From the NCBI RefSeq assembly GCF_000427885.1, contig NZ_ATYW01000020.1:84817-148816 (forward strand): DNA of 64,000 nt, written 5' to 3'. Positions 5,744 to 63,816 of this stretch are shown piece by piece (within the stretch, counting starts at the first letter, position 1; each line of letters begins with the position of its first letter). Made by a program: the position numbers and the translations under genes. This DNA comes from Glycomyces tenuis DSM 44171 (GTDB lineage Bacteria > Actinomycetota > Actinomycetes > Mycobacteriales > Micromonosporaceae). A model generated the notes under the pieces. That model ran no database searches and was not told where the DNA came from. It saw nothing but the letters and a program-made list of their open reading frames with translations.

Positions 5744-5791
5744 GCGGAGAACTCGCTGGCCTCCGACGCCCACCGCTGGCAGGCTTACGGC

Positions 5792-9644: not shown

Positions 9645-9740
9645 TGGGGCTCCTCCTCGTACACCCCAGTGATATCCGGCACCTCCGAGCCGGTTCTGAG
9701 AGGAACATCGGGAAACCTTGAGAATCCGCGCTTCGCAGAC

Positions 9741-9769
9741 GGCGGCGCCCGCGGCGAGCGGGCGCCGCC
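9741..9769 (-). terminator. second hairpin downstream of the CotH gene
   Basis: A perfect 12-bp stem (9741-9752 with 9758-9769) and 5-nt loop GGCGA. It lies between the CotH stop and the response-regulator gene and follows a larger palindrome. It is a back-up terminator or a structured 5' leader for the regulator. Confidence 0.5.
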
Positions 9770-9773
9770 GCCT

Positions 9774-9811
9774 CCGCTCGTCGGGGCGCGGCGCCGCGCC
9801 CCGACGAGCGG
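9774..9811 (-). terminator. 38-bp perfect palindrome after the CotH gene
   Basis: Bases 9774-9792 are the exact reverse complement of 9793-9811, with no spacer, beginning two bases after the CotH stop. As RNA it folds into a very stable hairpin without a T-tract, the common actinomycete terminator type. The exact symmetry would make it work from either direction. Confidence 0.65.
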
Positions 9812-9812
9812 C

Positions 9813-11336: not shown

Positions 11337-11338
11337 GG

Positions 11339-12022: not shown

Positions 12023-12038
12023 GAACGGCGGTTGCTTT

Positions 12039-45912: not shown

Positions 45913-47096
45913 GCCCCGGCCTCCAGCGGCAGCGATCCGGTCAGGACGAAGCGCCCGCCCTCGCGGGCGTGCTCGACCGCGCCGCCCGCGGCCGTGAAGC
46001 GCTCGGCGAGCATGGCCAGGCCGTTGCCGCTGCCGCTCTCCTCGCCGGCCCCGTCGTTGGTGATCGCGACGGTCGCCGCGCCGCCCTCGGCCTCCACGCG
46101 CAGCGTCGCCTCGGTCGCCTCGGCGTGGCGCAGCAGGTTCGTCGTGCCCTCCCGGACCAGGAGCCCCAGCAGCCGCTGGCGTTCGGGCCCCAGTTCGGGT
46201 ACGTCGGCGTCGACGGTGGCGTGGATTCCGGCCGAGTCCAGGATCCTCGCGGCGGAGGCGATCTCGTCGGCCAGCGAGACCTGCCGGTAGCCGCCGACGA
46301 CGGCGCGCGTGTCCCCCAGCGTGGCCCGGGACAGCTCCTCGATGGCCTCCAGCTCGCGCACCGCGTCGGCGGGCCTGACCTCGACGAGGCGTCGCGCCAG
46401 CTGCGCCTTGAGGACGATCGCCTGGAGGTGGCCGCCGTTGATGTCGTGGAGCTCGGCGGCGAAGCGCAGCCGCTCCTCGGCCACCGCCAGCTCGGCGGCC
46501 AGGCCCCGGCTGTGCTCGAGTTCGAGTGCCACGGCGTAGTTCCACCACTGGCAGACCACGCCGAGCACCACGGCCGGGAAGATCATGAGGGACATGATGG
46601 GCAGGGTGCGGTCGGCCAGTCCCGTCCACGTCAGGCCCACCGCGACGACGAACACCGCCACGGTGCCGTACAGCGCGAGCTTCCAGCGGAGGCCGGGGCG
46701 GGCCCGCAGGACCGGGACGGAGGCCAGCAGCCCGGCCGGAGCCACCCAAGCGGCGCTGACCTCGCCGTCGTAGGCGAGGGCGAGACCGGCGACCAAGGCC
46801 GCCAGGCCCGTCCAGCTCAGCAGCCGCTGCGCTCGCTCGCTTCCGTCCCGCATGAACACCACCAGCGCGGCGGTGCTCACCGCGGTCACGGCGGCGGCCG
46901 CGACCACGGCCGCCGCCAGGCGCGGGCCGGGCAGCTCCGAGGCGGCCAGGAACGACAGGGCGATGAACAGCGCGAAGGGACCGCAGCCCGCGATCGTCCA
47001 GAAGGTGTATCGGCGGAGCCGGTGCAGATCCCGCACCGGCGGCTCGAAGTGGCTCAGCACGTCGTGATTGAACCACCGCCACCGCCGAAGTGACAA
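45909..47096 (-). CDS. sensor histidine kinase, HisKA_3 type
   Basis: 395 residues if translation starts at the TTG at 47096; a GTG at 47060 is the alternative, since neither has a good ribosome-binding site. About five or six hydrophobic helices span residues 30-190, with short loops, so signals are probably sensed in or at the membrane. The phospho-acceptor is His217 in AAELHDINGGHLQAI, followed by an ATPase domain (REGTTNLLRHAEATEAT; NDGAGEESGSGNGLAML). It pairs with the regulator encoded downstream. Confidence 0.88.
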   Translation of the reverse strand: MSLRRWRWFNHDVLSHFEPPVRDLHRLRRYTFWTIAGCGPFALFIALSFLAASELPGPRLAAAVVAAAAVTAVSTAALVVFMRDGSERAQRLLSWTGLAALVAGLALAYDGEVSAAWVAPAGLLASVPVLRARPGLRWKLALYGTVAVFVVAVGLTWTGLADRTLPIMSLMIFPAVVLGVVCQWWNYAVALELEHSRGLAAELAVAEERLRFAAELHDINGGHLQAIVLKAQLARRLVEVRPADAVRELEAIEELSRATLGDTRAVVGGYRQVSLADEIASAARILDSAGIHATVDADVPELGPERQRLLGLLVREGTTNLLRHAEATEATLRVEAEGGAATVAITNDGAGEESGSGNGLAMLAERFTAAGGAVEHAREGGRFVLTGSLPLEAGA

Positions 47097-47102
47097 ATGT
47101 CA
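47091..47102. promoter_or_regulatory. palindrome in the kinase/ABC divergent region
   Basis: TGACA-AA-TGTCA is a 5-bp inverted repeat at the junction of the divergent genes, covering the proposed TTG start of the kinase. On the plus strand TACATT at 47115-47120 could be the -10 of the ABC genes. A binding site for the LuxR-type regulator is possible; if so, the kinase start at 47060 is more likely. Confidence 0.3.
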
Positions 47103-47184
47103 AGCCGGATCGCGTACATTTCCAGCGGCTTCGATGCGGATTCGGCACTACCGGGGCCCGCCCCGATCTCGGATCGTTGAGCGC

Positions 47185-48159
47185 ATGATGCGAACACATG
47201 CGACACCCGGCGCCGAGCCGGACTCCGACCTCGGCGGCCTCGCCCCCTCGGACGCGGCCGTCGACGTCCTCGACCTGACCTGTCGCTACGGCTCCTTCAC
47301 CGCGGTCGAGGGCGTCTCCTTCGCCGTCGCGCCGGGGGAGCTGTTCGCGCTCCTCGGCACCAACGGCGCGGGCAAGACGACCACGATCGAGACGCTCCAA
47401 GGGCTCCGGCGCCCCGCCTCCGGCCGAGCCCGCGTCCTCGGGCGCGACCCCTGGCGGCACCGCCGGGCCCAGGCCGGCCAGGTCTCGGTGATCGGCCAGG
47501 AGACCGGTTTCGCCGAGGACCTGACCGTGACCGAGACCGTCCGGCTGTGGACCGAGCTCCACCGCCTCGCCCCCGACGAGGGCGTGGGCGGACTGATCGA
47601 CCGGGTCGGGCTCGCCCACCGCTCGGGCACGCGCGTCGTCGCCCTCTCGGGCGGCGAGCGCCGCCGCCTCGACCTGGCGCTGGCGATCGGCACCCGGCCG
47701 CGGGTGCTGTTCGCCGACGAGCCCACCACCGGCCTCGACCCGAAGTCCCGCCGCGGCACCTGGGCGATCCTGCGGGAGCTCACCGCGGGCGGCACCACGG
47801 TCCTGCTGACCACGCACTACCTCGACGAGGCTGCCGAACTGGCCGACCACGTCGCCATCATGGACAAGGGCCGGATCGTCCGCTTCGGCACCGTCGAGGA
47901 GGTCGTCGCCTCGCACGGCGCGCTCATCACCGCGCGGTTGGACGAGGCGATCGACGCCAGGGACCTCCCGGCCCTCGCCGGCGAGATCCGCTGCGCCGCG
48001 GGCGAACTGCGCGTGCGCACCCCCGAACTCCAGGCCGACCTCCACCGCCTGCTCACCTGGGCCGACTGGCGCCAGATCACCCTCGGCGGCCTCAAGGCCG
48101 CTCCCGCCACGCTCGACGAGATCTTCGCCGAGCTCGAAGACGACAAGGACCGACGATGA
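47185..48159 (+). CDS. ABC exporter ATP-binding protein
   Basis: 324 residues from the first of two adjacent ATGs; longer in-frame starts (47068) would lie inside the divergent kinase gene. Motifs: Walker A LLGTNGAGKTTT, Q-loop GQETGF, signature LSGGERRRL, Walker B VLFADEPTTGLDP, H-loop LLTTHYLDEA. The C-terminal extension (from about 250) is usual for DrrA/CcmA-type exporters. It overlaps the permease gene by ATGA and forms an ABC-2 exporter with it. Confidence 0.92.
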   Translation: MMRTHATPGAEPDSDLGGLAPSDAAVDVLDLTCRYGSFTAVEGVSFAVAPGELFALLGTNGAGKTTTIETLQGLRRPASGRARVLGRDPWRHRRAQAGQVSVIGQETGFAEDLTVTETVRLWTELHRLAPDEGVGGLIDRVGLAHRSGTRVVALSGGERRRLDLALAIGTRPRVLFADEPTTGLDPKSRRGTWAILRELTAGGTTVLLTTHYLDEAAELADHVAIMDKGRIVRFGTVEEVVASHGALITARLDEAIDARDLPALAGEIRCAAGELRVRTPELQADLHRLLTWADWRQITLGGLKAAPATLDEIFAELEDDKDRR

Positions 48160-48914
48160 ACGCCACGACCCAGCACGCGCCCCTGTGGTGGACGCTCGGC
48201 ATCGCCGAGTCCCGCCTGATCGCCCGCAACCGCACCGTCCTCATCACCGCCGCGGTCCTCCCGCTCCTCATCGGCTTCGCCTTGAGCCGGTCCGACGACA
48301 GGCTCCTCGCCGGCGGCGTCGGCGCCGTCGCCGCCATCCAGATGGGCTTCGTCCAGATGTTCGGCGTCTTCTTCGCCGTCACCATGACCCTCGCCTCGCG
48401 GCGCCAGCAGCGCTACCTCAAGCGCCTGCGCACCTCGCCGGCGTCCACCGCCTCGGTCGTGGCCGGGCTGGCCGCGCCCTCCGTGGCGCTCTCGCTGATG
48501 CAGACGCTGATCCTGCTGGTGTTCCTCGGCTGGCAGACCGGCACCGTGCCCTCACGCCCTGATCTGCTCGCACTGGCGTTCGTGATCGGCACGGTCCTGA
48601 ACGCCGCGCTCGGCTTCCTGACCGCCTCGTTCACCAAGAACCCCGAGGCCGCGCAGGTGACGGTGATCCCGGGGATGCTCGCGCTCATGATCGGCATCGG
48701 CTGGACGCTCATGCAGGAGCCCGGCGGGGTCGGGCTCGCCCACCTCCTCGTCCCCGCCGGGGCCGTCACCGACCTGACCCGCACGGCCTGGGACGGCACG
48801 GCCGGCCGCGGCTTCGCCGAGGCCGTCGCGCTCCCCGGCGGCGCGGCGCTGGCCGTCGCGGCGGCGGCGTGCGTCGTCGCCGTCAAGCTCTTCCGCTGGC
48901 AGCCCCGAGCCTGA
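48156..48914 (+). CDS. ABC-2 type exporter permease
   Basis: 252 residues with six predicted helices (from about 29, TVLITAAVLPLLIGFAL, to 226-245, LPGGAALAVAAAACVVAVKL) and the ABC-2 cytoplasmic segment RRQQRYLKRLRTSPAS. It works with the ATPase encoded just before it. The substrate is probably an antibiotic or lipid, judged by the divergent two-component system. Confidence 0.9.
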   Translation: MNATTQHAPLWWTLGIAESRLIARNRTVLITAAVLPLLIGFALSRSDDRLLAGGVGAVAAIQMGFVQMFGVFFAVTMTLASRRQQRYLKRLRTSPASTASVVAGLAAPSVALSLMQTLILLVFLGWQTGTVPSRPDLLALAFVIGTVLNAALGFLTASFTKNPEAAQVTVIPGMLALMIGIGWTLMQEPGGVGLAHLLVPAGAVTDLTRTAWDGTAGRGFAEAVALPGGAALAVAAAACVVAVKLFRWQPRA

Positions 48915-50028: not shown

Positions 50029-51468
50029 ATGGCGAAGCCGGAAGTCGCAGCCGAGTCGGCTCCCGCCGCCAAGGTGGCCTTCTGGACGCTCACCGCCATG
50101 GTCGTCGGCTCCATGGTCGGCGCGGGCGTCTTCTCCCTCCCCGCCCGCTTCGCCGAGGAGACCGGCGTCGCCGGCGCGCTCATCGCCTGGGCCATCGCCG
50201 GGACCGGCATGCTCATGCTCGCGTTCGTCTTCCAGTCGCTCGCCGTGCGCCGCCCCGACCTCGACGCGGGCGTCTACGCCTACGCCAAGGCCGGCTTCGG
50301 CGAGTACCCGGGCTTCTTCGCCGCCTTCGGGTACTGGGCCAGCGCCTGCGTCGGCAACGTGACCTACTGGGTCCTCATCATGTCCACCACGGGCGCCCTG
50401 ATCCCCGCCCTCGGCGACGGCGACACGGTCCTCGCCGTGGCGGTCTCCTCGGTGGGCCTGTGGGGCTTCTTCCTGCTCATCAAGCGCGGCGTCAAGGAGG
50501 CCGCGGCGATCAACCGGATCGTCACCGTCGCCAAGGTCATCCCCATCGTCGTGTTCGTCCTGCTGGCCCTGTTCTACTTCGATCCCGGCGTCTTCGCCGA
50601 CAACTTCGGCGGGGCCGACTACGCCGGATCGCTGTTCAGCCAGGTCCGGGGCACCATGCTCGCCACGGTGTTCGTGTTCCTCGGCGTCGAGGGCGCCAGC
50701 GTCTACTCCCGGCACGCCAAGCGCCGCTCCGACGTCGGGCGCGCCACCGTCACCGGCTTCCTCAGCGTCTTCGCGGTCTTCGCCTCGGTCACGATCGTCT
50801 CCTACGGCATCATGCCGATGGACGAGATCGCCGAGCTCCGCCAGCCCTCGATGGCGGGCGTCCTCGAGGCCGCCGTCGGCACCTGGGGCACCGTGTTCGT
50901 CAGCGTCGGGCTGATCGTCTCGGTCCTCGGCGCCTACCTGGCGTGGACGCTCATGGCCGCCGAGGTCCTCTTCGTCGCCGCGAAGGACGACGACATGCCG
51001 CGGTTCCTCGGCCGCTCCAACGCCGCCGACGTGCCCGTCCCCGCCCTGGTGATGAGCACCGCCCTGTCGCAGATCGTCCTCGTGGTCACCTTCTTCTCCG
51101 AGGACGCCTTCAACTTCGCGCTCAACATGACCAGCGCCCTGACGCTCATCCCGTTCCTCCTGGCCGCCGCCTTCGCGGTCAAGGTCGCCACCGGCCGCGA
51201 CGCCGCCGCGCCCCGCGGCACCTCCGGCGAGATCGCGATCAGCGTCCTCGCCGTCGTCTACACCGCGTTCCTGCTCTACGCGGCCGGTCTGCGATACGTC
51301 CTGGTGTCGCTGATCGTCTACGCCCCGGCCACCGTCCTGTTCGTCATGGCCCGCCGCGAGCAGGGCCGACGCCTGTTCAGCCCCGCCGAGGCCGTGCTGC
51401 TGGCCGTCTCGATCGCCGGCGCGGCCGTCGGCGTGGTCGCCCTGGCGGCCGGCTGGATCAGCATCTGA
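50029..51468 (+). CDS. APC family basic amino-acid antiporter (ArcD-like)
   Basis: 479 residues, 12-13 transmembrane helices. The APC start [20 protein letters not shown] and the later [20 protein letters not shown] match the arginine/ornithine (and lysine) antiporters of the APA family. It precedes an arginine deiminase gene by 31 bp, so arginine/ornithine or arginine/citrulline exchange is the most likely role. The start follows GCGAGGGAGCC. Confidence 0.87.
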
Positions 51469-51499
51469 ACCGACCCACCGACAGCCGAGGAGTGCACCG

Positions 51500-52762
51500 A
51501 TGACCGCCGACCAGAAGCCGCTCTCCGCCGCCTACGGAGTCCACTCCGAGGTCGGCAGGCTCCGCAAGGTCCTGGTGTGCGCCCCCGGCCTGGCGCACCG
51601 GCGCCTGACCCCCAGCAACGCCGACAGCCTGCTGTTCGACGACGTCATGTGGGTGGAGAACGCCCAGAAGGACCACGCCGAGTTCGTCGAGCTGCTCCGC
51701 GCCCGCGGCGTCGAGGTCGTCGAGCTCCACGACGTCCTCGAGCGGACGGTGGCGATCCCCGAGGCCCGCGACTGGCTGCTCGACCGCAAGATCGTGCCGG
51801 GCCAGGTCGGCCTCGGCCTGGTCGACGCCACCCGCTCCTATCTGGAGTCGCTGCCGCCGCGGCGGCTCGCCGAGTACCTCATCGGCGGCCTCGCCGCCGC
51901 CGACCTCCCCGAGGACCTGCGGCCCGGCTACATCGCGCTCGTCCGCGAGTCGACCGGCACCCGCGAGTACCTCATGCCGCCCCTGCCGAACACGCTCTAC
52001 ACCCGCGACACCACGTGCTGGCTCTACGGCGGCGTCACGCTCAACCCGCTGTACTGGCCCGCGCGCCACGACGAGACGCTGCTGATGAAGGCGGTCTACC
52101 GCTTCCACCCCGACTTCGCCGGCGCCACCGTCTGGTGGGGCGACCCGGAAGTCGACTGGGGGCAGGCCACCTTCGAAGGCGGCGACATCATGCCCGTCGG
52201 CGGCGGCGTCGTGCTCATGGGCATGAGCGAGCGCACCTCCCGCCACGCCATCACCCAGGTGGCGCGGGCGCTGTTCGAGCAGGGCGCCGCCGAGCGGGTG
52301 ATCGTCGCCGGCATGCCGAAGCTCCGCGCGGCGATGCACCTCGACACCGTCTTCACCTTCGCCGACCGCGAGACGGTGACGCTCTACCCGAGGATCATGG
52401 CGGACGTCCACGCCTTCACGTTGCGGCCCTCCGAGGCCGTCCCCGGCATCCACCTCACCGACCACGGCTCCGAGCGCTTCACGGACGTCGTGGCCGCCGC
52501 CCTCGGCCTGCGCGGGCTGCGGGTGATCGAGACCGGCGGCGACCTCTACGCCTCCGAACGCCAGCAGTGGGACTCGGGCAACAACGCCGTCGCGATCGAA
52601 CCGGGCGTCGTGGTGACCTACGACCGCAACACCCAGACGAACGCGCTGCTGCGGCGGGCCGGGATCGAGGTCCTCACCATCGTCGGCGCCGAACTGGGCC
52701 GCGGCCGCGGCGGCGGGCACTGCATGACCTGCCCGATCGTCCGCGACCCCGTCGAGTACTGA
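51500..52762 (+). CDS. arcA: arginine deiminase
   Basis: 420 residues, full length. The active-site blocks are present: [32 protein letters not shown] and [10 protein letters not shown], with the catalytic Cys408. It turns arginine into citrulline and ammonia. No ornithine carbamoyltransferase (arcB) or carbamate kinase (arcC) gene is in the window, so the classical ATP-yielding pathway is not shown; ammonia release or acid resistance with an ArcD-like exchanger is possible. It ends 10 bp from the convergent MFS gene. Confidence 0.93.
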
Positions 52763-52772
52763 AGCCGGGCCT

Positions 52773-54053
52773 TCATAGGTCACGCTTCGGGGCGATCGCC
52801 AGGCCGATCACGGTGACCGCCAGCGCCGCCGTCGTGTACAGCGAGATCGCCGCCGAGGAGTCGAACCAGTCGAACAGGACGATCGCGATGATCGGGGCGA
52901 GGGCGCCGCCGGGTATGCCCGCGAGCTGGTAGCCCAACGAGGTGCCCGAGTAGCGGACCTTGGTCGGGAACAGCTCGGCGATGAAGGCGGCCTGCGGCCC
53001 GTACATGGCGGCGTGCGCGATGAGCGCCACCGTGACGGCGGCGATGACGGCCCCCGTCCTCCCTGTGTCCAGCAGCGGGAAGAACACCCACGCCCACACC
53101 GCGGCCGTGACGGCCCCGGCGACGGCGATGCCCTTGCGTCCGAAGGTATCCGACAGGCGCCCGAACCACGGGACGAGGACGAGCTGGACCGCCGAGCCGA
53201 CCACGACCGCCACCAGGCCGACGCCGTCCTCGTCGCCCAGATGCGTCAGCAGGTGGAGCGTGAAGATGTAGAAGGCCACGTCGACGCCGATGCGGGCGCA
53301 GAACGAGGCGGTCAGGGCCCGCCGGTGGGTCCGGAACACCTCGGAGAGCGGGTTCTCGGGGCGCTCCCTCTGGTGCGTGAACATCGGCGATTCGGCGATG
53401 TTGCGCCTGATCCACAGGCCCACCAGGGCGAGCGCGGCCGAGACGAGGAACGGCAGCCGCCAGCCCCAGGTCGCGAACGCCTCGTCCGAGAGCACCAGGC
53501 CCGTGAACGCGAGCACGCCGACGGCGGCGATGTTCCCCGCGGGCACGCCGAACTGGACCCAGGCCGCCGCCAGGCCCCAGTGCCGCCGCGAGGAGTGCTC
53601 CATCGACAGCAGCACCGCGCCGCCCCACTCGCCGCCGAGGCTCAGGCCCTGCACGAACCGCAGGACCACCAGCAGCACCGGCGCCGCGGTGCCGATGGAG
53701 GCGTGGGTGGGCAGGATGCCGATGAGGAAGGTCGACATGCCCATGACCAGGAGCGTGACGGCCAGGACGTTGCGGCGCCCCACCCGGTCGCCGAGGTAGC
53801 CGAAGGCGATGCCGCCGATGGGGCGGGCGATGAAGCCGACCCCGTAGGTGGCGAAGGCCAGCAGCGTGCCGGTGGCCGGATCGGAGCCGGGGAAGAACAG
53901 CGGCCGGAACACCAGCGCGGCGGCGGTGCCGTAGAGGAAGAAGTCGTACCACTCCAGGGAGGTCCCGAGCGCGCAGGCGCCGATGATCTCGCGCGGCGTC
54001 CGCTTCCGCGGGGGAGCGGCGGCGGTGGCGGCCGCGGCGGCGGCGGTGCTCAT
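52773..54053 (-). CDS. MFS transporter, metabolite:H+ symporter family
   Basis: 426 residues, 12 predicted helices. LEWYDFFLYGTAAALVF and GYLGDRVGRRNVL are typical of the MHS group (ProP, ShiA, citrate/ketoglutarate carriers), with VQGLSLGGEWGGAVLLSMEH in the third helix region. Its start overlaps the GlnH-like gene stop (ATGA), so it belongs to the PknG operon. A dicarboxylate or amino-acid-related substrate would fit that module (inference). Confidence 0.87.
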   Translation of the reverse strand: MSTAAAAAATAAAPPRKRTPREIIGACALGTSLEWYDFFLYGTAAALVFRPLFFPGSDPATGTLLAFATYGVGFIARPIGGIAFGYLGDRVGRRNVLAVTLLVMGMSTFLIGILPTHASIGTAAPVLLVVLRFVQGLSLGGEWGGAVLLSMEHSSRRHWGLAAAWVQFGVPAGNIAAVGVLAFTGLVLSDEAFATWGWRLPFLVSAALALVGLWIRRNIAESPMFTHQRERPENPLSEVFRTHRRALTASFCARIGVDVAFYIFTLHLLTHLGDEDGVGLVAVVVGSAVQLVLVPWFGRLSDTFGRKGIAVAGAVTAAVWAWVFFPLLDTGRTGAVIAAVTVALIAHAAMYGPQAAFIAELFPTKVRYSGTSLGYQLAGIPGGALAPIIAIVLFDWFDSSAAISLYTTAALAVTVIGLAIAPKRDL

Positions 54054-54898
54054 TCGCACCCCTCGAACTGCGGTATGGGGAACCGCGAGAGGTCGCCCAG
54101 GACCGTCCCGGCGAACCACTGCTCGAGGAGCAGCTCGGCGGTGCTGGCCGACCCGTCGGGGCCGTCCTGGTACATCTCGGTGATGGCGCGGTTGACGGCT
54201 TCGCACCCGGCGGTGTCGCCGGGCCGCATGCCGACGCCGATGCGCTCCTGGGAGAACCGCGCCCCGACGAGCTTCGCCTCGAAGTCGGCGTCCAGCGCCA
54301 GGCCCGCGAGGCCGAGCTCGTCGGTGGCGATCGCGTCGACCTCGCCGCTGCCGACCAGCCCCATGCACTCCTCGTAGCTCTCGACGCTCCGGATGACCGC
54401 GTCGACGCCGTGCTCCTCGGTGAGGCGGTCGATCGCGTTGGAGCCTTCGACCTCGCAGACCGTCCCGCCCTCGAGGTCGTCGAGCGTGGCGATCTCGTCG
54501 TTGTCCGCGCGCACCAGGAGGTCGAAGTGGTCGATGACGTACGGCCCGGCGAAGGCGACGCTCTGCTTGCGCTCCTGTGTGATCGAGTAGGTCGCGATCG
54601 CGAGGTCGATCTCCCCGGACAGCAGTTTCGGCTCGCGTTCGTCGAGCTCGATCGGGACGAAGACGACGTCCTTGCCCAGCTGCTCCGCGATGTAGTTCGC
54701 CACGTCGATCTCGTAGCCGACGAACTCGCCGTCGACCTCCTCGCTGAGCAGCGTCAGGCCGTACCGCACGCCGATCCGCAGGGTGTCCTTGTCGAGGATG
54801 GACTCCTCCTCGTCGCCGCCGCAGGCCGCCAGCGGCACCATGGCCATGGCGCACAGGGCGACCAGGGCTCGTCGGATCATGCTCCACCGTCCTCTCAT
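54050..54898 (-). CDS. glnH: GlnH-like amino-acid-binding lipoprotein
   Basis: 282 residues from the ATG at 54898, which overlaps the GlnX-like stop (ATGA); an ATG at 54880 is a fair alternative with a better signal peptide. Lipobox LAAC, Cys26. The mature part is a family 3 solute-binding protein (LRIGVRYGLTLLSEEVDGEFVG; DLAIATYSITQERKQSVAFAGP). No ABC permease is linked. In mycobacteria GlnH binds Asp/Glu/Asn and signals through GlnX to PknG rather than feeding a transporter; this order supports the same job. Confidence 0.85.
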   Translation of the reverse strand: MRGRWSMIRRALVALCAMAMVPLAACGGDEEESILDKDTLRIGVRYGLTLLSEEVDGEFVGYEIDVANYIAEQLGKDVVFVPIELDEREPKLLSGEIDLAIATYSITQERKQSVAFAGPYVIDHFDLLVRADNDEIATLDDLEGGTVCEVEGSNAIDRLTEEHGVDAVIRSVESYEECMGLVGSGEVDAIATDELGLAGLALDADFEAKLVGARFSQERIGVGMRPGDTAGCEAVNRAITEMYQDGPDGSASTAELLLEQWFAGTVLGDLSRFPIPQFEGCE

Positions 54899-56289
54899 CG
54901 GTACTCCCTCAGCCGCGGCGCGATGCCGCTGAAGGTGAACACGCCCAGCGAGACCATCGCGGCCACGAGCAGGAACGCGAACCCGGCTATGGCGTCCTCG
55001 CCCGCGGCGACGGCCGACTCGAAGCGTTCGAGGTGCCGGTCCGACAGCTCGTCGAGCGCGTCCTCGTACTCGGCGCGGGCGCCCTCGACCAGCGCGAGCC
55101 GCTCGGAGGGGCCGCCGCCCTCCTCGCGCATCGCGGCGTCGGCGAGGATGAGCGCGGTGTACGCCTCGACGAGACGCTCGCTCTCGCCCGAGCCGTCGAG
55201 GCCGTCGCCGACCAGTCCGGTGAGCTCCCCGCCCCGGCCGGTCTCGGCCAGGGCGTCCTGGTAGCGCGGCAGGCTCACCGCCTCGAGGTAGACCAGCTGC
55301 TGCGCCTTGTCGAAGTAGGTCTGCTCGTAGACGTCGGCCTCGCCCGCGTCGAGCAGGAACCTGACCCGGTCGGCGTGGAGGCCGTTGGAGATCGCCTGTG
55401 CCCGCTCCAGCGACAGCACCGCGTCGAAACCGTCCAGTTTGGCCTCGTCGAGCGCCTCGCGCTCGGTGTCGAGGACGGTGAGCCCGGTGAACAGGTACAG
55501 CACGGCCACGGCCGTGGCGACGACGAGCGAGGGGTTGAACACGCGCCGGAATCCGCGGGCCAGGAAGACCTGGAGGGCCACCAGGAGCGCGAGCGCGGCG
55601 ACCCCGGTGAGGGCCACCGCGACCAGTCCGGCGTCGATGCGCCCGGACGCGGCGTCGTAGGACTCGCGGACGATCGTCGCGTTCTCCAGGGTGAGGTTGT
55701 AGGCCTGGGGGAGGATCCGGCCGCTCATGAGCTCGGCGGCCTCCCGGTAGGCCTCCAGCACGTTCTCGGGCGGCCCCCCGGAGGCGTAGCCGCCGTCCCG
55801 CGCGAGCAGCAGCGCGACGGCGGCGAGCTGCTGGTACTCGCCCCACCGGGACATGACGGACTCGATGGTGCGCCGCTCGGCCTCGGCCGAGCCGGCGAGC
55901 CGGTGGGCCTCGAGCAGCGCGGCGGCGATGTCGCCGCGCCGCTGCTCGTAGCGGTCCATGGCGGCCTCGGCGCGGTCGGGGTCCGAGCCGCCGACGAGCA
56001 GCGCGGTGGCGACCTGCGAGTCGGCGTCGCTGAGCGCGTAGTACAGCTCGGTGGTGGCCACGACCTGCGGCCCTGAGGAGTGGCCGATGACCTCGAGCGC
56101 GTCCTCTGCGGCGCTGACGGCGTAGTAGAGCGCGCCGAACATGGCCGCCAGGGCCGCGACCACCGCCGTGGCCTGGGCGATCAGCGTCTGCGGCCCGCCG
56201 CTGCCGGGTTCGACGCCGAGCCGCGCCAAGGCGGCGGCGTCGCCGGCCGGCAGGCCCCGGCCCCCCGGGCGTTCGCGGAGCGCCGTCAT
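54895..56289 (-). CDS. glnX: GlnX-like membrane sensor
   Basis: 464 residues with four transmembrane helices (about 36-59, 223-246, 252-271 and 434-459). Two long extracytoplasmic helical segments lie between helices 1-2 and 3-4, in a repeated pattern (both contain ALERAQ/ELYYALSDAD-type helices and a heptad-like spacing). This is the layout of mycobacterial GlnX (Rv0412c family), which passes the GlnH signal to PknG. Weak sequence identity is expected in this family; the call rests on topology plus the neighbours. Confidence 0.7.
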   Translation of the reverse strand: MTALRERPGGRGLPAGDAAALARLGVEPGSGGPQTLIAQATAVVAALAAMFGALYYAVSAAEDALEVIGHSSGPQVVATTELYYALSDADSQVATALLVGGSDPDRAEAAMDRYEQRRGDIAAALLEAHRLAGSAEAERRTIESVMSRWGEYQQLAAVALLLARDGGYASGGPPENVLEAYREAAELMSGRILPQAYNLTLENATIVRESYDAASGRIDAGLVAVALTGVAALALLVALQVFLARGFRRVFNPSLVVATAVAVLYLFTGLTVLDTEREALDEAKLDGFDAVLSLERAQAISNGLHADRVRFLLDAGEADVYEQTYFDKAQQLVYLEAVSLPRYQDALAETGRGGELTGLVGDGLDGSGESERLVEAYTALILADAAMREEGGGPSERLALVEGARAEYEDALDELSDRHLERFESAVAAGEDAIAGFAFLLVAAMVSLGVFTFSGIAPRLREYR

Positions 56290-56825
56290 CGTCCCGCCCC
56301 GTCCTCGGCGGAGCGCTCCCGCACCGTGATCGCGGTCCAGAGGCCGATGTGGATGACCGAGTCGGGTTCGAGCCGCGTCTCGACGTTGCGTTCGAGCTTC
56401 TGCCCGTCGACGCGGGTGCCGTTGGCCGAGCCGACGTCGTGGACGGTCCAGCTGTCGCCGTCGCGTTTGAGGATCGCGTGGATCCGCCGGGAGACGCCGA
56501 GGTCGGCGGCGGGGACCTCCCCGAGGTCGATGAGCGGGCGCGGGCCCGCATCGCCCGACTCGCTCCGCCCGATGTAGACGACGTCGCGGTCCAGCGGCAC
56601 GACCCGCCTGGGCGCGTGCGGCGGGAACGGGACCGGGTCGTCCCCGCCGACGCCGTTGCCGAGCCGGTCGTAGAAGGCCCGGTCCGCCTCGATCACCGCC
56701 TCGAACAGCGTCGGCTCGGTGCTGCGGCGGGTGCGGAAGTCCGGCATCTCCACGAGCACTTCGCCGCAGACGCTGCACCTGATCGGGTTGGACGAGTCGT
56801 GGCCGTTGGGGCACCGGTGGCTCAT
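56286..56825 (-). CDS. FHA-domain protein with N-terminal zinc ribbon
   Basis: 179 residues. Cys5, His9, Cys17 and Cys20 (CPNGH and CSVC) form a small zinc knuckle. The FHA domain (about 75-170) has its phosphothreonine-binding residues: Gly86-Arg87 (YIGRSES), Ser112-Arg113 (GVSRRIHAIL) and Asn135-Gly136 (VGSANGTRVDG). Thr36 and Thr39 in RRSTEPTLFE, just before the FHA, lie where GarA/OdhI carry their PknG-phosphorylated ETT motif. It could be the kinase's substrate or docking partner. ATGA overlaps on both sides. Confidence 0.85.
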   Translation of the reverse strand: MSHRCPNGHDSSNPIRCSVCGEVLVEMPDFRTRRSTEPTLFEAVIEADRAFYDRLGNGVGGDDPVPFPPHAPRRVVPLDRDVVYIGRSESGDAGPRPLIDLGEVPAADLGVSRRIHAILKRDGDSWTVHDVGSANGTRVDGQKLERNVETRLEPDSVIHIGLWTAITVRERSAEDGAGR

Positions 56826-58093
56826 TGCGTGTCTTCCTCCAGCGAGGTCGGGGTGCGGACGGTGCGGTCGGTGACCATGTGCGCCTCGAGCTCCTCGGAG
56901 CGGGTGATCCCGGCCCGGATGGTGGCGCCGCCGCGGCCGTCGAAGTCGAGGAGCCTTTCGATCTGCTCGGCCTGCTCGGCGTTGCCCACCTCGCGGGCCC
57001 CCTCCAGCGCGGTGACGAGCAGCCGGGTGGCGGCCTCCGGGGCCCGGTGGAGCCGTTCGAGGGCCTCGCGGATGTGCGCGATCCCGGTCAGCTGGGTCCG
57101 GTGGTGGACCACCGCGGGATGGAACGCGCTGCTCATGGCGGCGTCGCCGGTCCATATCGCCCGGACCGAGCCGGCCGCGACGGCCCGCTCCCGGCAGACC
57201 AGCTCCAGCCTCGCCTGCCGCTCGAGATCCACGCCGGTGGCGGGGAACGCCGCCTCGATCAGGTACTGGCGCTCCTCGGCGCCCCAGGCCCCCAAGGGGA
57301 ACGCGAGCCTCCTGGCGCCGGCCTCGCGCCCGCGGGGGAGGAGGTCGCGTTCGGTCGGGAACGCCTCCCACAGCCCGGTCACCTCGAAGCCTTTGGGGCC
57401 CTTGACGGTCAGTTCGACCTCGTCGACGGCCCTGGCCATGGCCCGGTCGGTCGCCCGGGTGAAGAACTCGGCCAGGTCGGGCAGGTCCTTGCAGTAGTTG
57501 CGGGTGCCGTGGAACAGCTGGGCGATCCGCCTGAGCTCCTCGGCGTTCCACCCGGTCCCGATGCCGACGGCGTCGCAGGTGAACCTCCCCTCGCAGTAGG
57601 CCAGGTCCGCGTCGTACCGGGCCGGATGCTGGTTGACCTGCCCGTCGGTCAGCAGCAGCACGTGGCCGATGGCGCCCGGCCGGCTCGATGCGATGTCGGC
57701 GGCGCGCCGCAGCCAGGTGCCTATCGAGGTCGCGCTGCCGATCTTCATCGCGTCGACCGCCGCGGCGGCGGCCCGCTTGTGCTCCTCGGTCCCCGCCGCG
57801 AGACGCCCGCCGCCGGGGTAGAGCTCGGTGGCGCCGGTGCCCCCGGCGATGAGCGCGAAGTGCGCGTCCTCGCGGATGGCGCCGAGCGCGGCCTTCGCCG
57901 CCCGTTTCGCCTCGGTGAACTTCGGGCCGGCCATCGACCCCGAGCGGTCGATGACGATGATCTCGGCGACCTCGGCACCGACGTCCTCGGCGGGCGCGAA
58001 GCCGACGGTGACGACGGCGTGCATCGTCGTCTCCTCCGGCGCCAGATAGGGGTTCTGGGCCACGCTGATCGCGAATCCGGTCTGCTCGGTCAA
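56822..58093 (-). CDS. von Willebrand factor A domain protein
   Basis: 423 residues, no signal peptide. The VWA domain has a complete metal-ion adhesion site: DRSGS (49-53), Thr122 and TDGQ with Asp150. Beyond residue 250 comes a beta-rich part and a helical C-terminus. VWA proteins bridge partners through a metal ion. It is encoded 22 bp after the PknG gene and overlaps the FHA gene, suggesting a complex with kinase and FHA protein. Confidence 0.87.
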   Translation of the reverse strand: MTEQTGFAISVAQNPYLAPEETTMHAVVTVGFAPAEDVGAEVAEIIVIDRSGSMAGPKFTEAKRAAKAALGAIREDAHFALIAGGTGATELYPGGGRLAAGTEEHKRAAAAAVDAMKIGSATSIGTWLRRAADIASSRPGAIGHVLLLTDGQVNQHPARYDADLAYCEGRFTCDAVGIGTGWNAEELRRIAQLFHGTRNYCKDLPDLAEFFTRATDRAMARAVDEVELTVKGPKGFEVTGLWEAFPTERDLLPRGREAGARRLAFPLGAWGAEERQYLIEAAFPATGVDLERQARLELVCRERAVAAGSVRAIWTGDAAMSSAFHPAVVHHRTQLTGIAHIREALERLHRAPEAATRLLVTALEGAREVGNAEQAEQIERLLDFDGRGGATIRAGITRSEELEAHMVTDRTVRTPTSLEEDTQ

Positions 58094-58115
58094 ATCGTCC
58101 TCCTTCTGCGGCGCT

Positions 58116-60296
58116 TCACAGCCAGGTCCTCGGCCGCGCCCGGTTCGCCGCGCCGACGAGCGCCCAGCGCGTCAGCGGCGAGGCGCAGCCGGCCGAGACG
58201 CGGCGCAGCACCGCCTCGTAGGCCTGTCCGATCGCGTTGCGGGTCAGCGCCACGCCCCGCACGCTCCGCCCCGGATCCTCGGCCCCCGCTTCCACGGCCG
58301 CGAGCGCGGCCCGCCACACCTCCGCCTCGATGAGGGCGGCCCGGGCGGCGTCGAGTCCGGCGAGCTCGTCCAGGTGGGCGCCCGCCGCGACGACCGCCTC
58401 CAGGTCCGGCCTCCCGCGCACGCGCTCGGCGATGAGCGCCTGCCGGGCGTCGAGGTAGTGGCTCGACGAATGCGGCACCTCCGCCATCGCGGCCACCCGC
58501 TCGACGGCCGAGTCCGAAGTGCGGGCCAGCCCGAAGGCGGCGCTGGTGTGGTTGCGGTCGGTGCGCCAGACGGTGCGGTACAGCTCGGCCGCCCGCCGAG
58601 GCGGCGTCCCCGCCGACTCCTCGCACACGGCCAGCGCCAGCATCGGCGCGAGCTCGCCCGGCAGGCGCCGCCGCACCGCCGCGAAGTGCTCGGCGGCTTC
58701 CGCGGGGGCGCCGCCGAGTGCGGCGACGCCCCGGTACCAGTCGAGCCGCCAGTCGTCGCCGAAGTCCCCGCGCGCCCGCTCGATCTGCGCCGCCGCGTCG
58801 CGGGCGCCCAGTTCGGCGGCGAGCCGGATCCGCGCCAGCCGCGCCTCCGGGGTGGCCGGGAGCGCCTCGATGAGCTCCCGGGTCCTCGCTGCGGGCTGGA
58901 GGGCCAGCCCGACCAGGGCCGGACCGGCGAGATCGGACGGGTCGGCCACCTGCGGCACGGGCAGCACCCTGCGCGCCTCCTCGGCGCCGGGCCGGGCGAA
59001 GACGGTGTCGGCCGAGTCGGCCAGGGCGCTGGCGAGCGCGCCGCGCTCGAGTCCGAAGCGGGCGGACACGGCCGGGTAGGGCTGGCCGTCGAGTTCGGCG
59101 CGGATCTGCCGCAGCACTCCGGTCAGCTGCTCGGCCATGGCCGCGGCGGAGTCGAACCGCTCGGCGGGGTCGCGGGCGCAGGCGCGCTGGAGCAGCAGGT
59201 ACAGCGACTCGTTGAAGCCCGCCGGGCGCGGCGGCAGCGGGACCTCGCGGGTCTCCCCGCCGCTCGCCTCGGCGGGCCGGAACCCGAGTGTGAGGACGGC
59301 CAGGGTCCGGCCGACGGTGTACAGGTCCGAGGCGACGTCGGGCGGGTGGGCCCGGCCGATCTCCGGCGCGCTGTAGCCGGGGGTGCGCCAGATGTCGCCG
59401 TCGGTCCGGCCGATGCGCCGCATGGCGCCGAGGTCGATGAGCTTGAGCCGCTTGCCGAACTGGATGACGTTGGACGGCTTGAGATCGCAGTAGACCATGC
59501 CGTTCGAGTGCAGGTAGTCGAAGGCGGACAGGATCTCCAGAGCGAACGGGATCGCCCAGTGGGCGGGCATCGTGGCGCCCCCGGCCCAGGCGGGATGGCT
59601 CAGGTCGCTCAGGGCGACGCCGCCGACGTACTCCATGACCAGGTAGTCGTGTTCGGCGCCGTCGCTCCGGTCGCGGTGCTTGACGTAGTTGTGGATGTCG
59701 ACGATGTTGGGGTGGTTCACGGCGACGAGGTAGTGCCGCTCGTCGCGGGCGGCGCGCAGCGCCGCCGGGTTGGCCGGGTCGAGGAGTCCTTTGAGGACCA
59801 CCCGGCTCTCCAGGTGGTGGTCGACGGCGAGGTAGACGCCGCCGAGCCCGCCGTGCGCGATGAGGCCCTCGACCTCGTACTGCCCGGCGACGAGCTCGCC
59901 TCTGGCGAGCGTGCGCGTGAAGTCGTAGACGGCCTCGCAGGTGGGGCAGCGGCCCTTGAGCGGCGCGGGGCTCCCGTCGGCGGACCGCCCGACCTCGTGG
60001 CTGTTCGGACACCACCGGCGGCTCTCGGGCACGACGGGGTCGCTGAGCAGGTTCGAGGTCGGGTCGCTCACCGGCGCGCTCGGGACGTCGGCGAGCCCGG
60101 TGCCGAGCCGGCCGGGCACGTGGACGTCGACGGGCGCGGGCTCTACGCTCAGGGCCCGCTGCTCCGGCACCGGGGGCGGCTCGTCGACGTAGTCGGCGGC
60201 CGAGCGCCCGCACGCCTCGCACAAGCCCTCCTCGTCCAGGACGCCCTTGCCCTCCCCGGGACACTTGGGCAGGGCGCAGTAGACGACGCCGGTCAC
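58116..60296 (-). CDS. pknG: PknG-like serine/threonine protein kinase
   Basis: 726 residues from GTG. Order: N-terminal zinc site (Cys7, Cys12, Cys26, Cys29), disordered segment, a second metal knuckle (Cys96, His100, Cys117, Cys120), kinase domain (about 138-400) and TPR-like helices to the end. Kinase residues are Gly-rich loop AHGGLGGVY, Lys169, Asp271 in YCDLKPSN and Asp288 in LIDLG; the HRD-to-YCD and DFG-to-DLG changes are those of PknG. In mycobacteria PknG phosphorylates the FHA protein GarA to control glutamate metabolism. The knuckle here is CxxxH/CxxC rather than the all-Cys rubredoxin. Confidence 0.9.
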   Translation of the reverse strand: MTGVVYCALPKCPGEGKGVLDEEGLCEACGRSAADYVDEPPPVPEQRALSVEPAPVDVHVPGRLGTGLADVPSAPVSDPTSNLLSDPVVPESRRWCPNSHEVGRSADGSPAPLKGRCPTCEAVYDFTRTLARGELVAGQYEVEGLIAHGGLGGVYLAVDHHLESRVVLKGLLDPANPAALRAARDERHYLVAVNHPNIVDIHNYVKHRDRSDGAEHDYLVMEYVGGVALSDLSHPAWAGGATMPAHWAIPFALEILSAFDYLHSNGMVYCDLKPSNVIQFGKRLKLIDLGAMRRIGRTDGDIWRTPGYSAPEIGRAHPPDVASDLYTVGRTLAVLTLGFRPAEASGGETREVPLPPRPAGFNESLYLLLQRACARDPAERFDSAAAMAEQLTGVLRQIRAELDGQPYPAVSARFGLERGALASALADSADTVFARPGAEEARRVLPVPQVADPSDLAGPALVGLALQPAARTRELIEALPATPEARLARIRLAAELGARDAAAQIERARGDFGDDWRLDWYRGVAALGGAPAEAAEHFAAVRRRLPGELAPMLALAVCEESAGTPPRRAAELYRTVWRTDRNHTSAAFGLARTSDSAVERVAAMAEVPHSSSHYLDARQALIAERVRGRPDLEAVVAAGAHLDELAGLDAARAALIEAEVWRAALAAVEAGAEDPGRSVRGVALTRNAIGQAYEAVLRRVSAGCASPLTRWALVGAANRARPRTWL

Positions 60297-60931: not shown

Positions 60932-62068
60932 TCATGCCGCCAGCTCGCCGTGGAGCTGGCGGGCGGCGACGAGCAGCGCGCCCTTGAGTTCGACGCCCTC
61001 CGCCGACTCGCCGCGCCGCGAGCGGAGCTCGCGCTCCAGGGCGTCCAGGACCTCGACTGGGGTGGCCGCGGCCGGATCGGTCTCGGCCACGATGTCGGGC
61101 CTGCCCGAGACCAGCCTGGCGACCCGCTCCTCGAGCGCGTCCGCCGCCGCGTCCAGCACGCCCGCGTACTGCGCGCTGAACGCCTCGTCCAGGGCCCGGT
61201 ACGGCATGTCCTCGCGGCTGACGTGGTGCAGCGAGTTCGCGATGGTCTGGACGGCGTCGGTGGTGCGGCCCACCAGCTCGGCCGCGGCCCGGTAGCGGTC
61301 CGCGTCCCGCAGGTACCGGCTCCGCGGCCGGCGCGGATTCAGGCGCAGGCTCTCCCGCCCGCGCCGCAGCGCCCGCCCCAGCTCCCAGACGCGCTCGTCG
61401 AGCCGGTCGGCGCGCTCGACCCAGTCCCGCGTGTCGGCGGCGCCCCACTCGCCGCGGACGCCCTCGGCCATCTCGCGCAGCAGCCGCCCCTCCTCCTCGC
61501 CCACCCGGCGGGTCTCGTCCCCGGCGGCCCCGACCCGCACCGGCGGGAAGACCAGCAGGTTGACCGCGGCGCCGGTGAGGGCCCCGAGCGCCGTCTCGGC
61601 CAGGCGCGACAGGATGTACGGGCCGTCCAAGCCCCCGATCGTGACCATGAACAGCGCCGTGAACGGCACGTACATGCCCTGGTCGTCGAGACGCTTCCAC
61701 TGGCCCGCCAGGACGGCGACCGGCACCAGGACGGCCAGCGCGAGCTCCGTGGTCGGCAGGGCGACGCCCGCCAGGTACGCCAGGACGACGCCGAGCGCCA
61801 CGGACGCGACCTGCCGGCCCGCCGACAGCACCGACCAGTACACGGTGGTCCGCACCATGATCATGGCCGCCCACGGCGCCACGTACGGCATCGGCAGCCC
61901 CAGCGCGTGCGCGGCCAGCGTCCACGCCGCCACCGCGGCCAGCCCCGCCTTCAGCGCCTGCTTCGCGGTCTCGCGGGCGGCACTGCCGCTCCGGCCCATG
62001 CCGCGCAGGAAACGACCCCCGTCCTCGGCGTCGCCGAGGACGCCGTCCCATACGGATCGAACACGCAT
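60932..62068 (-). CDS. FUSC / aromatic acid exporter family protein
   Basis: 378 residues from the ATG at 62068; a longer frame from 62173 would overlap the divergent gene's start. Six predicted helices fill about residues 30-180 (AGLAAVAAWTLAAHALGLPM; GVVLAYLAGVALP; YILSRLAETALGALTGAAVN), with the FUSC block APWAAMIMVRTTVYWSVLSA. The C-terminal half is soluble and helical. Relatives (ArAE family) export aromatic acids. 100 bp separate it from the small gene downstream, with no clear signal. Confidence 0.82.
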   Translation of the reverse strand: MRVRSVWDGVLGDAEDGGRFLRGMGRSGSAARETAKQALKAGLAAVAAWTLAAHALGLPMPYVAPWAAMIMVRTTVYWSVLSAGRQVASVALGVVLAYLAGVALPTTELALAVLVPVAVLAGQWKRLDDQGMYVPFTALFMVTIGGLDGPYILSRLAETALGALTGAAVNLLVFPPVRVGAAGDETRRVGEEEGRLLREMAEGVRGEWGAADTRDWVERADRLDERVWELGRALRRGRESLRLNPRRPRSRYLRDADRYRAAAELVGRTTDAVQTIANSLHHVSREDMPYRALDEAFSAQYAGVLDAAADALEERVARLVSGRPDIVAETDPAAATPVEVLDALERELRSRRGESAEGVELKGALLVAARQLHGELAA

Positions 62069-62166
62069 GCAAAATGGAGTACCCGACGGCGCGCGCCGGT
62101 ATGCTCCGCCGCCGTCCGGCGCCCCGATCGGGTTTGTGATCGGGCACGGCAGGGAAATCGAACGCC

Positions 62167-63816
62167 GTGACACAGCGGGGGAGCGCCGCGTCCGTCGAGC
62201 CCGAGGCGGGGACGGGCGTCGAGACGGTCGACGCGGTCGTGATCGGCGCGGGACCGAACGGACTGGTGGCCGCCAACATCCTGGCCGCGCGGGGCTGGGA
62301 GGTGACCGTCCTGGAGGCCGCCGGCCGGCCCGGCGGCGCGGTGCGCACCGAGGAGGCCGCCGAACCGGGCTTCCGCGGCGACCTGTTCAGCGCCTTCTAC
62401 CCGCTGGCCGCCGCCTCCCCGGTGATCGCCGAACTCGAACTGTGGCGCTGGGGGCTGCGGTGGCGGCGCGCGCCCGACGTGCTCGCGCACGTCCTGCCCG
62501 ACGGCAGGGCCGCACTGCTGTCCTCGGACATCGAGGCGACCGCGGCCTCGCTGGCCGCTTTCGCCGGAGGCGACGCCGAGGCCTGGCGGGACGAGTACGA
62601 GTGCTGGAGGCGCATCCGAAAACCGTTCATGAACCTGCTGCTGCGGCCCTTCCCGCCGGTCAAGGCCGCGAAGCGGCTGCTGCACACCCTCGGCGCCGCC
62701 GAGACCCTGCGGCTGGCGAGGACGATGATCCTGCCCGCCCGCCGCCTCGGCGCCGAGCGCTTCGCCGGTGAAGGCGCCCGCGCCCTCCTGGCCGGCAACG
62801 CCATGCACAGCGGCATCGGCCCCGACCAGGCCGGCAGCGGATGCTTCGGCTGGCTGCTGTCCATGCTCGGCCAGGACCTCGGCTTCCCCGTCCCCGAAGG
62901 CGGAGCCGGGAGCCTCACCGACGCCCTGGTGGCCCGGCTCGAAGCCCACGGCGGCAGGGTCGACTGCCGCCGGCCGGTCGCGAAGGTCCTGCACGCGCGC
63001 GGGCGCGCCGTGGGCGTCCGCGACGCCGACGGCGAGGCGATCCACGCCCGCCGGGCCGTGCTCGCCGACGTCTCCGCTCCCGCCCTGTACCTCGACCTCG
63101 TCGGCGCCGAGCACCTGCCGCGACGGCTCCTCGACGATCTGGACGCCTTCGAGTGGGACCAGGCCACGCTCAAGGTCGACTGGACGCTCGACGCGCCGAT
63201 CCCCTGGGAGGCCCCCGAGGCCGCCCGGGCCGGCACCGTCCACCTCGGCACCGGCGTCGACGGCCTGTCCAAGGCCGCCGTCGAACTGACCTGCGGCCGG
63301 ACGCCGGACGAGCCGCTCCTGCTCATGGGGCAGATGAGCACCGCCGACCCGAGCCGCTCGCCCGAGGGCACCGAGACCGCCTGGGCCTACACCCGCCTCC
63401 CGCAGGGGCCGGACTGGACCGAGGAGGACAGCCGCCGCCTCGCCGACCGGATGCAGCGGACGATCGAGCGGTACGCGCCCGGCTTCACCGACCTGGTGCG
63501 CGAGCGGACCGTCGTCGGCCCCGCCGAGCTCGAGCGGATGGACCGCAACCTGGTCGGCGGTGCGATCAACGGCGGTTCGGCCGCGATCCACCAGCAGCTC
63601 GTGTTCCGCCCCGTCCCCGGCACGGGCAGGGCCGACACGGTGCTCGACCGGCTGTACCTGGCGAGCGCCTCGGCCCATCCGGGCGGCGCCGTCCACGGCG
63701 CGCCCGGCGCGAACGCCGCCCGGGCCGCGCTCGCCCGCGACGGCTGGGCCGGCGGCCCCTACCGCGCCGCCGTCGGCGCGTGCAACCGGGTGCTGTACGG
63801 CCGCTCGATGCCGTGA
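62167..63816 (+). CDS. phytoene-dehydrogenase-like FAD oxidoreductase
   Basis: 549 residues from GTG. The dinucleotide fold VVIGAGPNGLVAANILAARGW and EAAGRPGGAVRTEEA open the protein; ASAHPGGAVHGAPGANAARA near residue 505 is the C-terminal FAD block of the CrtI/PYROXD2 group (COG1233). Members oxidise isoprenoids or other hydrophobic compounds, but this subgroup mostly has no assigned substrate. No phytoene synthase gene is near, so a carotenoid role is not supported by context. Confidence 0.87.
   Translation: MTQRGSAASVEPEAGTGVETVDAVVIGAGPNGLVAANILAARGWEVTVLEAAGRPGGAVRTEEAAEPGFRGDLFSAFYPLAAASPVIAELELWRWGLRWRRAPDVLAHVLPDGRAALLSSDIEATAASLAAFAGGDAEAWRDEYECWRRIRKPFMNLLLRPFPPVKAAKRLLHTLGAAETLRLARTMILPARRLGAERFAGEGARALLAGNAMHSGIGPDQAGSGCFGWLLSMLGQDLGFPVPEGGAGSLTDALVARLEAHGGRVDCRRPVAKVLHARGRAVGVRDADGEAIHARRAVLADVSAPALYLDLVGAEHLPRRLLDDLDAFEWDQATLKVDWTLDAPIPWEAPEAARAGTVHLGTGVDGLSKAAVELTCGRTPDEPLLLMGQMSTADPSRSPEGTETAWAYTRLPQGPDWTEEDSRRLADRMQRTIERYAPGFTDLVRERTVVGPAELERMDRNLVGGAINGGSAAIHQQLVFRPVPGTGRADTVLDRLYLASASAHPGGAVHGAPGANAARAALARDGWAGGPYRAAVGACNRVLYGRSMP

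Follow-up and report, generated by a model that had tools for sequence, protein, structure and literature searches.

Here, we describe an operon organized around the gene of a PknG-type kinase and located in a 64-kb stretch of DNA from Glycomyces tenuis DSM 44171 (hereafter the window; unless otherwise stated, coordinates are positions within it). The whole operon lies on the minus strand and comprises six genes: pknG (58116..60296; 726 amino acids (aa), GTG start), whose product we call PknG-b; vwa (56822..58093; 423 aa, TTG start with AGGAGG upstream), for an ArnB-like protein; fha (56286..56825; 179 aa), for an ArnA-like protein; a glnX-like gene for a membrane transducer (54895..56289; 464 aa); a glnH-like gene for a solute-binding lipoprotein (54050..54898; 282 aa, lipobox LAAC); and a gene for a metabolite/H+ symporter of the MHS family (MFS; 52773..54053; 426 aa). 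The gap between pknG and vwa is exactly 22 bp, and the other four junctions are 4-bp ATGA overlaps; this arrangement, given in an earlier note on this DNA, was borne out in full on rechecking the window. Three other Glycomyces genomes carry the same six-gene set, which is therefore no chance arrangement, and, among named operons, its nearest relatives occur in Glycomyces harbinensis and G. sambucus. No promoter or terminator was found in a scan upstream of pknG. The interest of the operon is not the co-location of these genes as such, but the ArnB/ArnA-like pair of VWA and FHA proteins, which is common in PknG operons.

The VWA protein matched the Pfam family VWA_3 and was modelled by AlphaFold2 (AF2) with a predicted local distance difference test (pLDDT) score of 95, as a vWA domain within a beta-sandwich, followed by C-terminal helices. 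Its metal ion-dependent adhesion site (MIDAS; D49/S51/S53/T122/D150) is made up of residues that are invariant in the family. When the model was compared with the PDB, the sole close full-length matches were 4fx5 (Z 51.4) and the ArnB/ArnE proteins, namely the ArnB chain of the ArnAB complex (8s05_B; Z 30.7 over 362 residues, root mean square deviation (rmsd) 3.3) and its paralogue vWA2/ArnE (5a8j; Z 27.8 over 344 residues). The inter-alpha-inhibitor heavy chain aligned over 333 residues with an rmsd of 6.5, and most other matches covered the vWA domain alone. By sequence, the VWA family profile also reached ArnB (3.7e-11), within the vWA domain.

A VWA protein next to a kinase is also known from the TerY-P triad, in which a VWA of the TerY type occurs with a kinase and a PP2C phosphatase in a Ter locus. 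An equivalent metal-dependent complex of kinase, PP2C and VWA, of the type involved in tellurite-resistance (Ter) signalling, would be in line with the fact that the three genes adjoin in related operons. However, the fold match of the VWA protein is ArnB, and a Pfam scan of 41 VWAs, with no dedicated TerY comparison made, revealed no TerY-type C-terminal domain. We thus regard such a triad as very unlikely.

The best structural match, 4FX5, is caci_2163, a VWA protein from Catenulispora acidiphila deposited by structural genomics without an assigned function. It belongs to the same family as the window VWA over its full length (E 5e-51 with the window protein and 6e-178 with the family profile) and its C-terminus is the same STKTVR tail found in that family. 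That 4FX5 is a structural ortholog of ArnE/ArnB has already been published (PMC6509490), and it is also listed among the structural orthologues in PMC12852372; neither makes a tie to PknG.

In the core VWAs, the C-terminus follows the consensus DEM-x-L-[D/E]-T-R-S-T-K-T-V-R, where position 411 is Thr in 58 out of 58 proteins and position 408 is Ser or Thr in 56 out of 58. Throughout the whole protein, only eight positions are Ser or Thr in at least 95% of the sequences, four of them belonging to the MIDAS. T411 is not kept in seven divergent VWAs, which bear a zinc ribbon at the C-terminus and come from loci where other sensors are present and no FHA gene was detected. In the window VWA, the C-terminal segment (residues 408-423, TDRTVRTPTSLEEDTQ; codons 56825..56872 on the minus strand, from translation) includes the stretch TDRTVRTPT, which retains T408 (codon 56870-56872) and T411 (56861-56863), though not the remainder of the motif. 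The idea that the VWA protein ends in a freely disordered phospho-tail was corrected, as both the AF2 model and the match to 4fx5 show an ordered segment; the C-terminal segment of ArnB is likewise ordered when unphosphorylated.

The product of pknG consists of an N-terminal zinc-ribbon-like motif, a degenerate rubredoxin, a kinase domain (residues 140-388) and a PknG TPR domain (409-724). It matched the Pfam families PknG_TPR (1.8e-47), Pkinase (8.3e-30) and PknG_rubred (1.5e-16), all past their cut-offs, as well as the structure of the Mycobacterium tuberculosis PknG (2pzi; E 5e-107), and its Hanks-type catalytic residues (K169, E186, D271, N276 and D288) are intact. In the rubredoxin, C96, C117 and C120 are kept, and the equivalent of C109 is S99, with the conserved H100 beside it (His at the S99 position in the Glycomyces loci L037 and L057); the four-Cys metal site is not complete. 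Since the Corynebacterium PknG is devoid of rubredoxin, this site is not essential (PMC8546545). In Mycobacterium and Corynebacterium, the FHA substrate is recruited by N-terminal phospho-Thr sites on PknG (PMC8546545). Residues 1-62 of PknG-b comprise one Thr and two Ser, and therefore the known N-terminal phospho-Thr docking sites for GarA are missing; the Thr-rich N-terminus is kept in the canonical PknG copy of the genome, described below. These autophosphorylation sites are poorly conserved even among PknG proteins (PMC8546545).

The FHA protein (Pfam FHA, 4.4e-12) has a zinc ribbon (CPNGH...CSVCG) ahead of its FHA domain. The zinc-ribbon residues C5, H9, C17 and C20 are invariant, and those binding phosphothreonine (R87, S112, N135 and T137) are intact in the family alignment. 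When the family profile was run against the PDB, the closest prokaryotic relatives were two ArnA entries (1.4e-10 and 3.4e-10), ahead of GarA (3.6e-8) and OdhI, so that the protein appears to be ArnA-like by its architecture, judging from sequence.

The earlier note implied that this protein takes the place of GarA. In such a case, it would be a GarA/OdhI-like substrate of PknG-b that binds and controls metabolic enzymes at the 2-oxoglutarate node, with the VWA protein as a passive scaffold. The known output of PknG is indeed an FHA protein (PMC8546545), the phosphothreonine-binding residues are kept, and GarA is the next-best solved prokaryotic relative. However, the protein scored only 29 bits against the OdhI/GarA equivalog, the cut-off of which is 200, and carries a zinc ribbon in place of the ETTS N-terminus. 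Further, ArnA is the closer relative, PknG-b has no docking sites for GarA, and a separate GarA-like gene, whose product reaches 198 bits with the same equivalog, is present on a third contig of the genome. A GarA-like output is thus unlikely, and the GarA equivalence is not supported. The proposal that the signal chain lies in one operon stands in so far as kinase, sensor and phosphothreonine reader are co-encoded.

Regarding the sensor, the membrane protein matched the GlnX family NF058618 over its full length with 213 bits (E 7e-63), below the curated cut-off of 250; for comparison, Nonomuraea kin scored 282 bits and the host's own canonical copy 390 bits. The AF2 model (pLDDT 92.5) contains long helices at residues 33-102, 175-247, 253-313 and 394-463, and four transmembrane helices and two extracytoplasmic four-helix bundles are predicted, an organization described for the GlnX protein of C. 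glutamicum (PMC9769921). No whole-fold relative of the model was found in the PDB at E ≤ 0.001, and far down the list stood a four-helix-bundle sensor domain (3va9; probability 1.00, TMt 0.82). Family match and predicted structure agree in supporting the GlnX-like assignment.

The lipoprotein (Pfam SBP_bac_3, 3.8e-26) was aligned with M. tuberculosis GlnH (6h1u), whose Asp-holding residues were taken from PMC6069109. Equivalents of Arg147, Thr162, Ser164, Arg169 and Asp250 are present, and Tyr takes the place of Trp232, as is also the case in the glutamate-binding protein 5eyf. Apart from this substitution, the residues recognizing Asp/Glu are retained, in agreement with the GlnH-like identity assigned earlier, and because the pocket is kept in the alignment, an acidic amino acid is our best guess for the ligand. 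Sensing of arginine, hinted at by neighbouring arginine deiminase and ArcD genes and by a match to TIGR01096, was set aside since the lipoprotein retains equivalents of Arg147 and Thr162, which are specific for Asp/Glu, and since in G. harbinensis and G. sambucus no arcD-like/arginine deiminase pair was detected close to the operon.

The last gene encodes a carrier with 385.8 bits (E 2.3e-115) to TIGR00883 (metabolite/H+ symporter; cut-off 443). Its best equivalog is a shikimate transporter and all matches fall below cut-off, so that the term "dicarboxylate-type" used previously goes beyond the data. The carrier is present in all four Glycomyces copies, where it shares 72-89% identity with the other copies and is better conserved than PknG, VWA or FHA; hence, it matters to the Glycomyces version of the operon. 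This conservation would fit a role in uptake control, in which Asp/Glu is sensed and PknG-b regulates the symporter directly, VWA and FHA serving to assemble the kinase with the transporter. So would the finding of a different MHS gene after pknG in 11 Amycolatopsis loci (L071, L072, L073, L077, L079, L080, L087, L090, L091, L108 and L119). Nevertheless, the Amycolatopsis proteins are just 31-34% identical to the window carrier and the 11 loci represent one lineage, whose MHS-pknG neighbourhood is apparently independent of that in Glycomyces. Moreover, almost no other pknG operon with VWA and FHA among those compared has an MHS gene. The carrier cannot, for that reason, explain the presence of VWA and FHA, which makes control of uptake a rather improbable function of the set.

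As proposed in the earlier note, operon structure was compared across actinomycetes, using 80 named pknG loci that are those nearest to the query and thus not an unbiased sample. A VWA gene was present in 47 of the 80, and these 47 loci also contained FHA (43), PP2C (detected in 40), glnX (44) and glnH (42), whereas FHA occurred in just 2 of the 33 loci without VWA. We also analyzed 246 genomes drawn evenly across the phylum, in which PknG was detected by Pfam family. PknG was found in 15 genomes and the operon-type VWA family in nine, the best VWA match sharing a contig with pknG in all nine, at a distance of approximately 1-3 kb. The PknG genomes without VWA all fall into a single family within the same order, presumably Mycobacteriaceae. 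The extended pknG-PP2C-VWA-FHA(+glnX-glnH) operon is therefore widespread in actinomycetes and, given how common it is and that VWA adjoins pknG in nine out of nine genomes, the three-gene operon of the mycobacterial and corynebacterial models looks like a reduced form. A literature search retrieved no paper on the VWA, FHA or PP2C genes of the PknG operon, although subscription papers were outside its reach and an earlier description is possible.

Several variants were observed among these operons. A divergent PknG-VWA module (L049, 5256-13029; L053, 5571-11948; also L048, L050, L051 and L052; here and for the other loci below, positions are those of the locus) encodes a VWA that bears a zinc ribbon at its C-terminus; no FHA gene was detected in it, and L049 and L053 have a trypsin-like protease gene upstream. 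In L049, a sugar-type SBP_bac_1 protein comes after a weakly GlnX-like one, which gives the impression of an exchanged sensor. Between glnH and pknG, several related operons encode a protein of about 400 aa without a Pfam match (L044, 4943-6148; L040, 4951-6171). In L102, L103 and L105 (Actinomadura, Spirillospora), the operon consists only of pknG-VWA-glnX-glnH, PP2C and FHA not being detected; A. pelletieri has both this reduced operon and a complete one (L096). Mycobacterium sp. OAS707 (L125, 6701-15106) carries an extended operon, glnX-glnH-pknG-(gap)-VWA-FHA, and differs in this from M. tuberculosis with its three-gene operon.

The window operon is a second copy, since the 5.74-Mb host genome contains, in addition to the separate GarA-like gene, a canonical operon on another contig (locus L003) with glnX (5212-6603), glnH (6600 to about 7590) and pknG (7600-9966), followed by genes for a PP2C phosphatase (9981-11051) and an FHA protein (11048-12310), each with a zinc ribbon. 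PknG-b and the canonical PknG share 36% identity. In trees of PknG and GlnX, the window proteins and their Glycomyces orthologues are both placed beside Nonomuraea, inside Streptosporangiaceae (SH-aLRT 99 for PknG, 100/100 for GlnX; bootstrap 100), while the canonical PknG and GlnX copies group with Micromonosporaceae. The agreement of both trees, along with the gene order pknG-(PP2C)-VWA-FHA-glnX-glnH, which is that of Nonomuraea and Actinomadura, argues for a horizontal origin. A VWA tree was uninformative for the origin of the operon owing to long branches. As a side observation, the PknG of locus L063, a 3294-bp contig labelled Nocardia aurea, nests inside Nonomuraea, which may reflect transfer or, more likely, assembly contamination.

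In the window-type copy, PP2C is lacking, and no more than a few tens of bp separate pknG from vwa in the four Glycomyces genomes. This loss, together with the long branches, the eroded tail motif and the lost rubredoxin Cys, is what would be expected of a decaying duplicate without present function. However, the catalytic, MIDAS and phosphothreonine-binding residues are all intact and four Glycomyces genomes have retained the six-gene set, so that decay is most improbable.

On balance, we consider it fairly probable that the PknG operon of the window, the second in its genome, was acquired horizontally and is of the Streptosporangiaceae type, and that in it GlnH-GlnX-PknG controls a phospho-switch formed by the ArnB/ArnA-like VWA and FHA proteins; the phosphorylation, binding, ligand and output of this switch are what we infer. 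In the Arn system of Sulfolobus, ArnC phosphorylates residues in the C-terminal helix bundle of ArnB (peptides RMELIETTRR, ISESIETTRR and EITSEVTKK) and PP2A dephosphorylates them; in a nutrient-dependent manner, the zinc finger of ArnA binds unphosphorylated ArnB and its FHA domain binds the phosphorylated bundle (PMC6509490, PMC12852372). By analogy, the GlnH-like protein (GlnH-b) would bind an extracellular acidic amino acid and dock on the GlnX-like protein (GlnX-b), which would relay its state across the membrane to the kinase, at its TPR domain. Once active, PknG-b may phosphorylate Ser/Thr residues of the VWA C-terminal segment, around T408/T411, loosening the three-domain fold and turning a weak, zinc-ribbon-mediated VWA-FHA contact into a tight complex between the FHA domain and phosphothreonine, as ArnC does to ArnB/ArnA. 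Because the gene for a PP2C eraser is missing in the window operon, the switch would be reset by a phosphatase encoded elsewhere, e.g., in the canonical operon, and the MHS carrier would be no more than a target or an associated uptake function. In this design, the FHA protein would dock on its VWA partner rather than on the kinase, which fits the missing N-terminal Thr sites of PknG-b and the retained site in the VWA protein.

A number of observations weigh against this VWA-FHA switch. VWA and ArnB share 18% identity, and 40 of 41 VWAs matched the Pfam family VWA_3_C and none ArnB_C, the window VWA matching neither; since ArnB_C was not matched, we named the protein ArnB-like rather than ArnB. 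Moreover, the authors of PMC12852372 state that ArnB-like proteins outside the Arn system are mostly not involved in multi-phosphorylation processes. The T411 segment was modelled as ordered (pLDDT about 87-92), and there may thus be a structural reason for its conservation. The Glycomyces VWAs evolve fast, L036, L037 and L057 showing erosion of the wider tail motif; long branches lead to the Glycomyces group in the trees. Finally, the window FHA has one zinc ribbon where its relatives have two, and FHA occurs without a VWA gene in the canonical Glycomyces operon and in two Nocardiopsis loci.

A broader proposal, which we put forward only tentatively, is that the VWA-FHA switch with its PP2C eraser might represent an original output branch of PknG signalling throughout the actinomycetes; the three-gene operon would then be a reduced form, and in Bacteria as in Archaea the same switch logic would connect the sensing of nutrients with a phospho-dependent VWA-FHA complex. 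Work on PknG has so far dealt with a three-gene sensor whose target is GarA/OdhI. Should such a switch be encoded by most PknG operons of Streptomyces, Nonomuraea, Actinomadura and their relatives, a whole output branch would have been overlooked, because the model species lack the VWA-FHA genes. If true, this would also give a function to the structural-genomics protein 4FX5 and connect a nutrient-response module from Archaea with a bacterial kinase for which the class of activating ligand is known; the residues named by this proposal are T411 in VWA and R87/S112 in FHA. As for the earlier interpretation as a whole, the co-encoded GlnX, GlnH, kinase and reader remain, the GarA-like FHA is not supported, and the spread of the extended operon, the presence of a further, canonical pknG operon in the genome and the likeness of the VWA-FHA pair to ArnB-ArnA had been missed.

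Regarding the surroundings, an arcD-like arginine-ornithine antiporter gene and an arginine deiminase gene (50029-52762, plus strand) are convergent with the operon, the deiminase gene, which is the downstream neighbour, ending at 52762, 10 bp off; the pair occupies the same place in genome G119 (locus L036). The upstream neighbour lies about 635 bp away, and at 60932-63816 a FUSC/aromatic acid exporter-like gene (minus strand) and a CrtO-like FAD dehydrogenase gene (plus strand) overlap by a few bases. Judged by their translations, a sensor-kinase/response-regulator-like pair lies beside an ABC transporter ATPase/permease pair at 45307-48914. A defence system was rejected, since the PADLOC matches were generic kinase matches.

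Compared with known systems, the window system shares with Arn a VWA partner composed of vWA domain, split beta-sandwich and C-terminal helices, with an intact MIDAS and conserved Ser/Thr in its C-terminal segment; an FHA partner whose FHA domain, competent for phosphothreonine, is preceded by an N-terminal zinc ribbon; and a linked TPR-containing Ser/Thr kinase, joined in most operon relatives by a phosphatase. It differs in that it is bacterial, has a membrane amino-acid sensor and no archaellum, shows PP2C in place of PP2A and VWA_3_C in place of ArnB_C, and its phosphorylation is a predicted one. With GarA/OdhI, the operon FHA has in common its FHA domain and a plausible role as a PknG-linked reader, but it is set apart by the zinc ribbon, the absence of ETTS and a score far below the family cut-off. 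Like the PknG-GlnX-GlnH operon of Mycobacterium and Corynebacterium, the window operon encodes together a TPR-domain kinase (with rubredoxin in Mycobacterium), GlnX and GlnH (PMC6069109, PMC8546545, PMC9769921), with a GlnX of four transmembrane helices and two bundles and an acidic-amino-acid pocket in GlnH. In contrast to it, the window operon adds the VWA, zinc-ribbon FHA and MHS genes, is the second copy in its genome, and encodes a kinase without the N-terminal Thr docking sites and one of the rubredoxin Cys.

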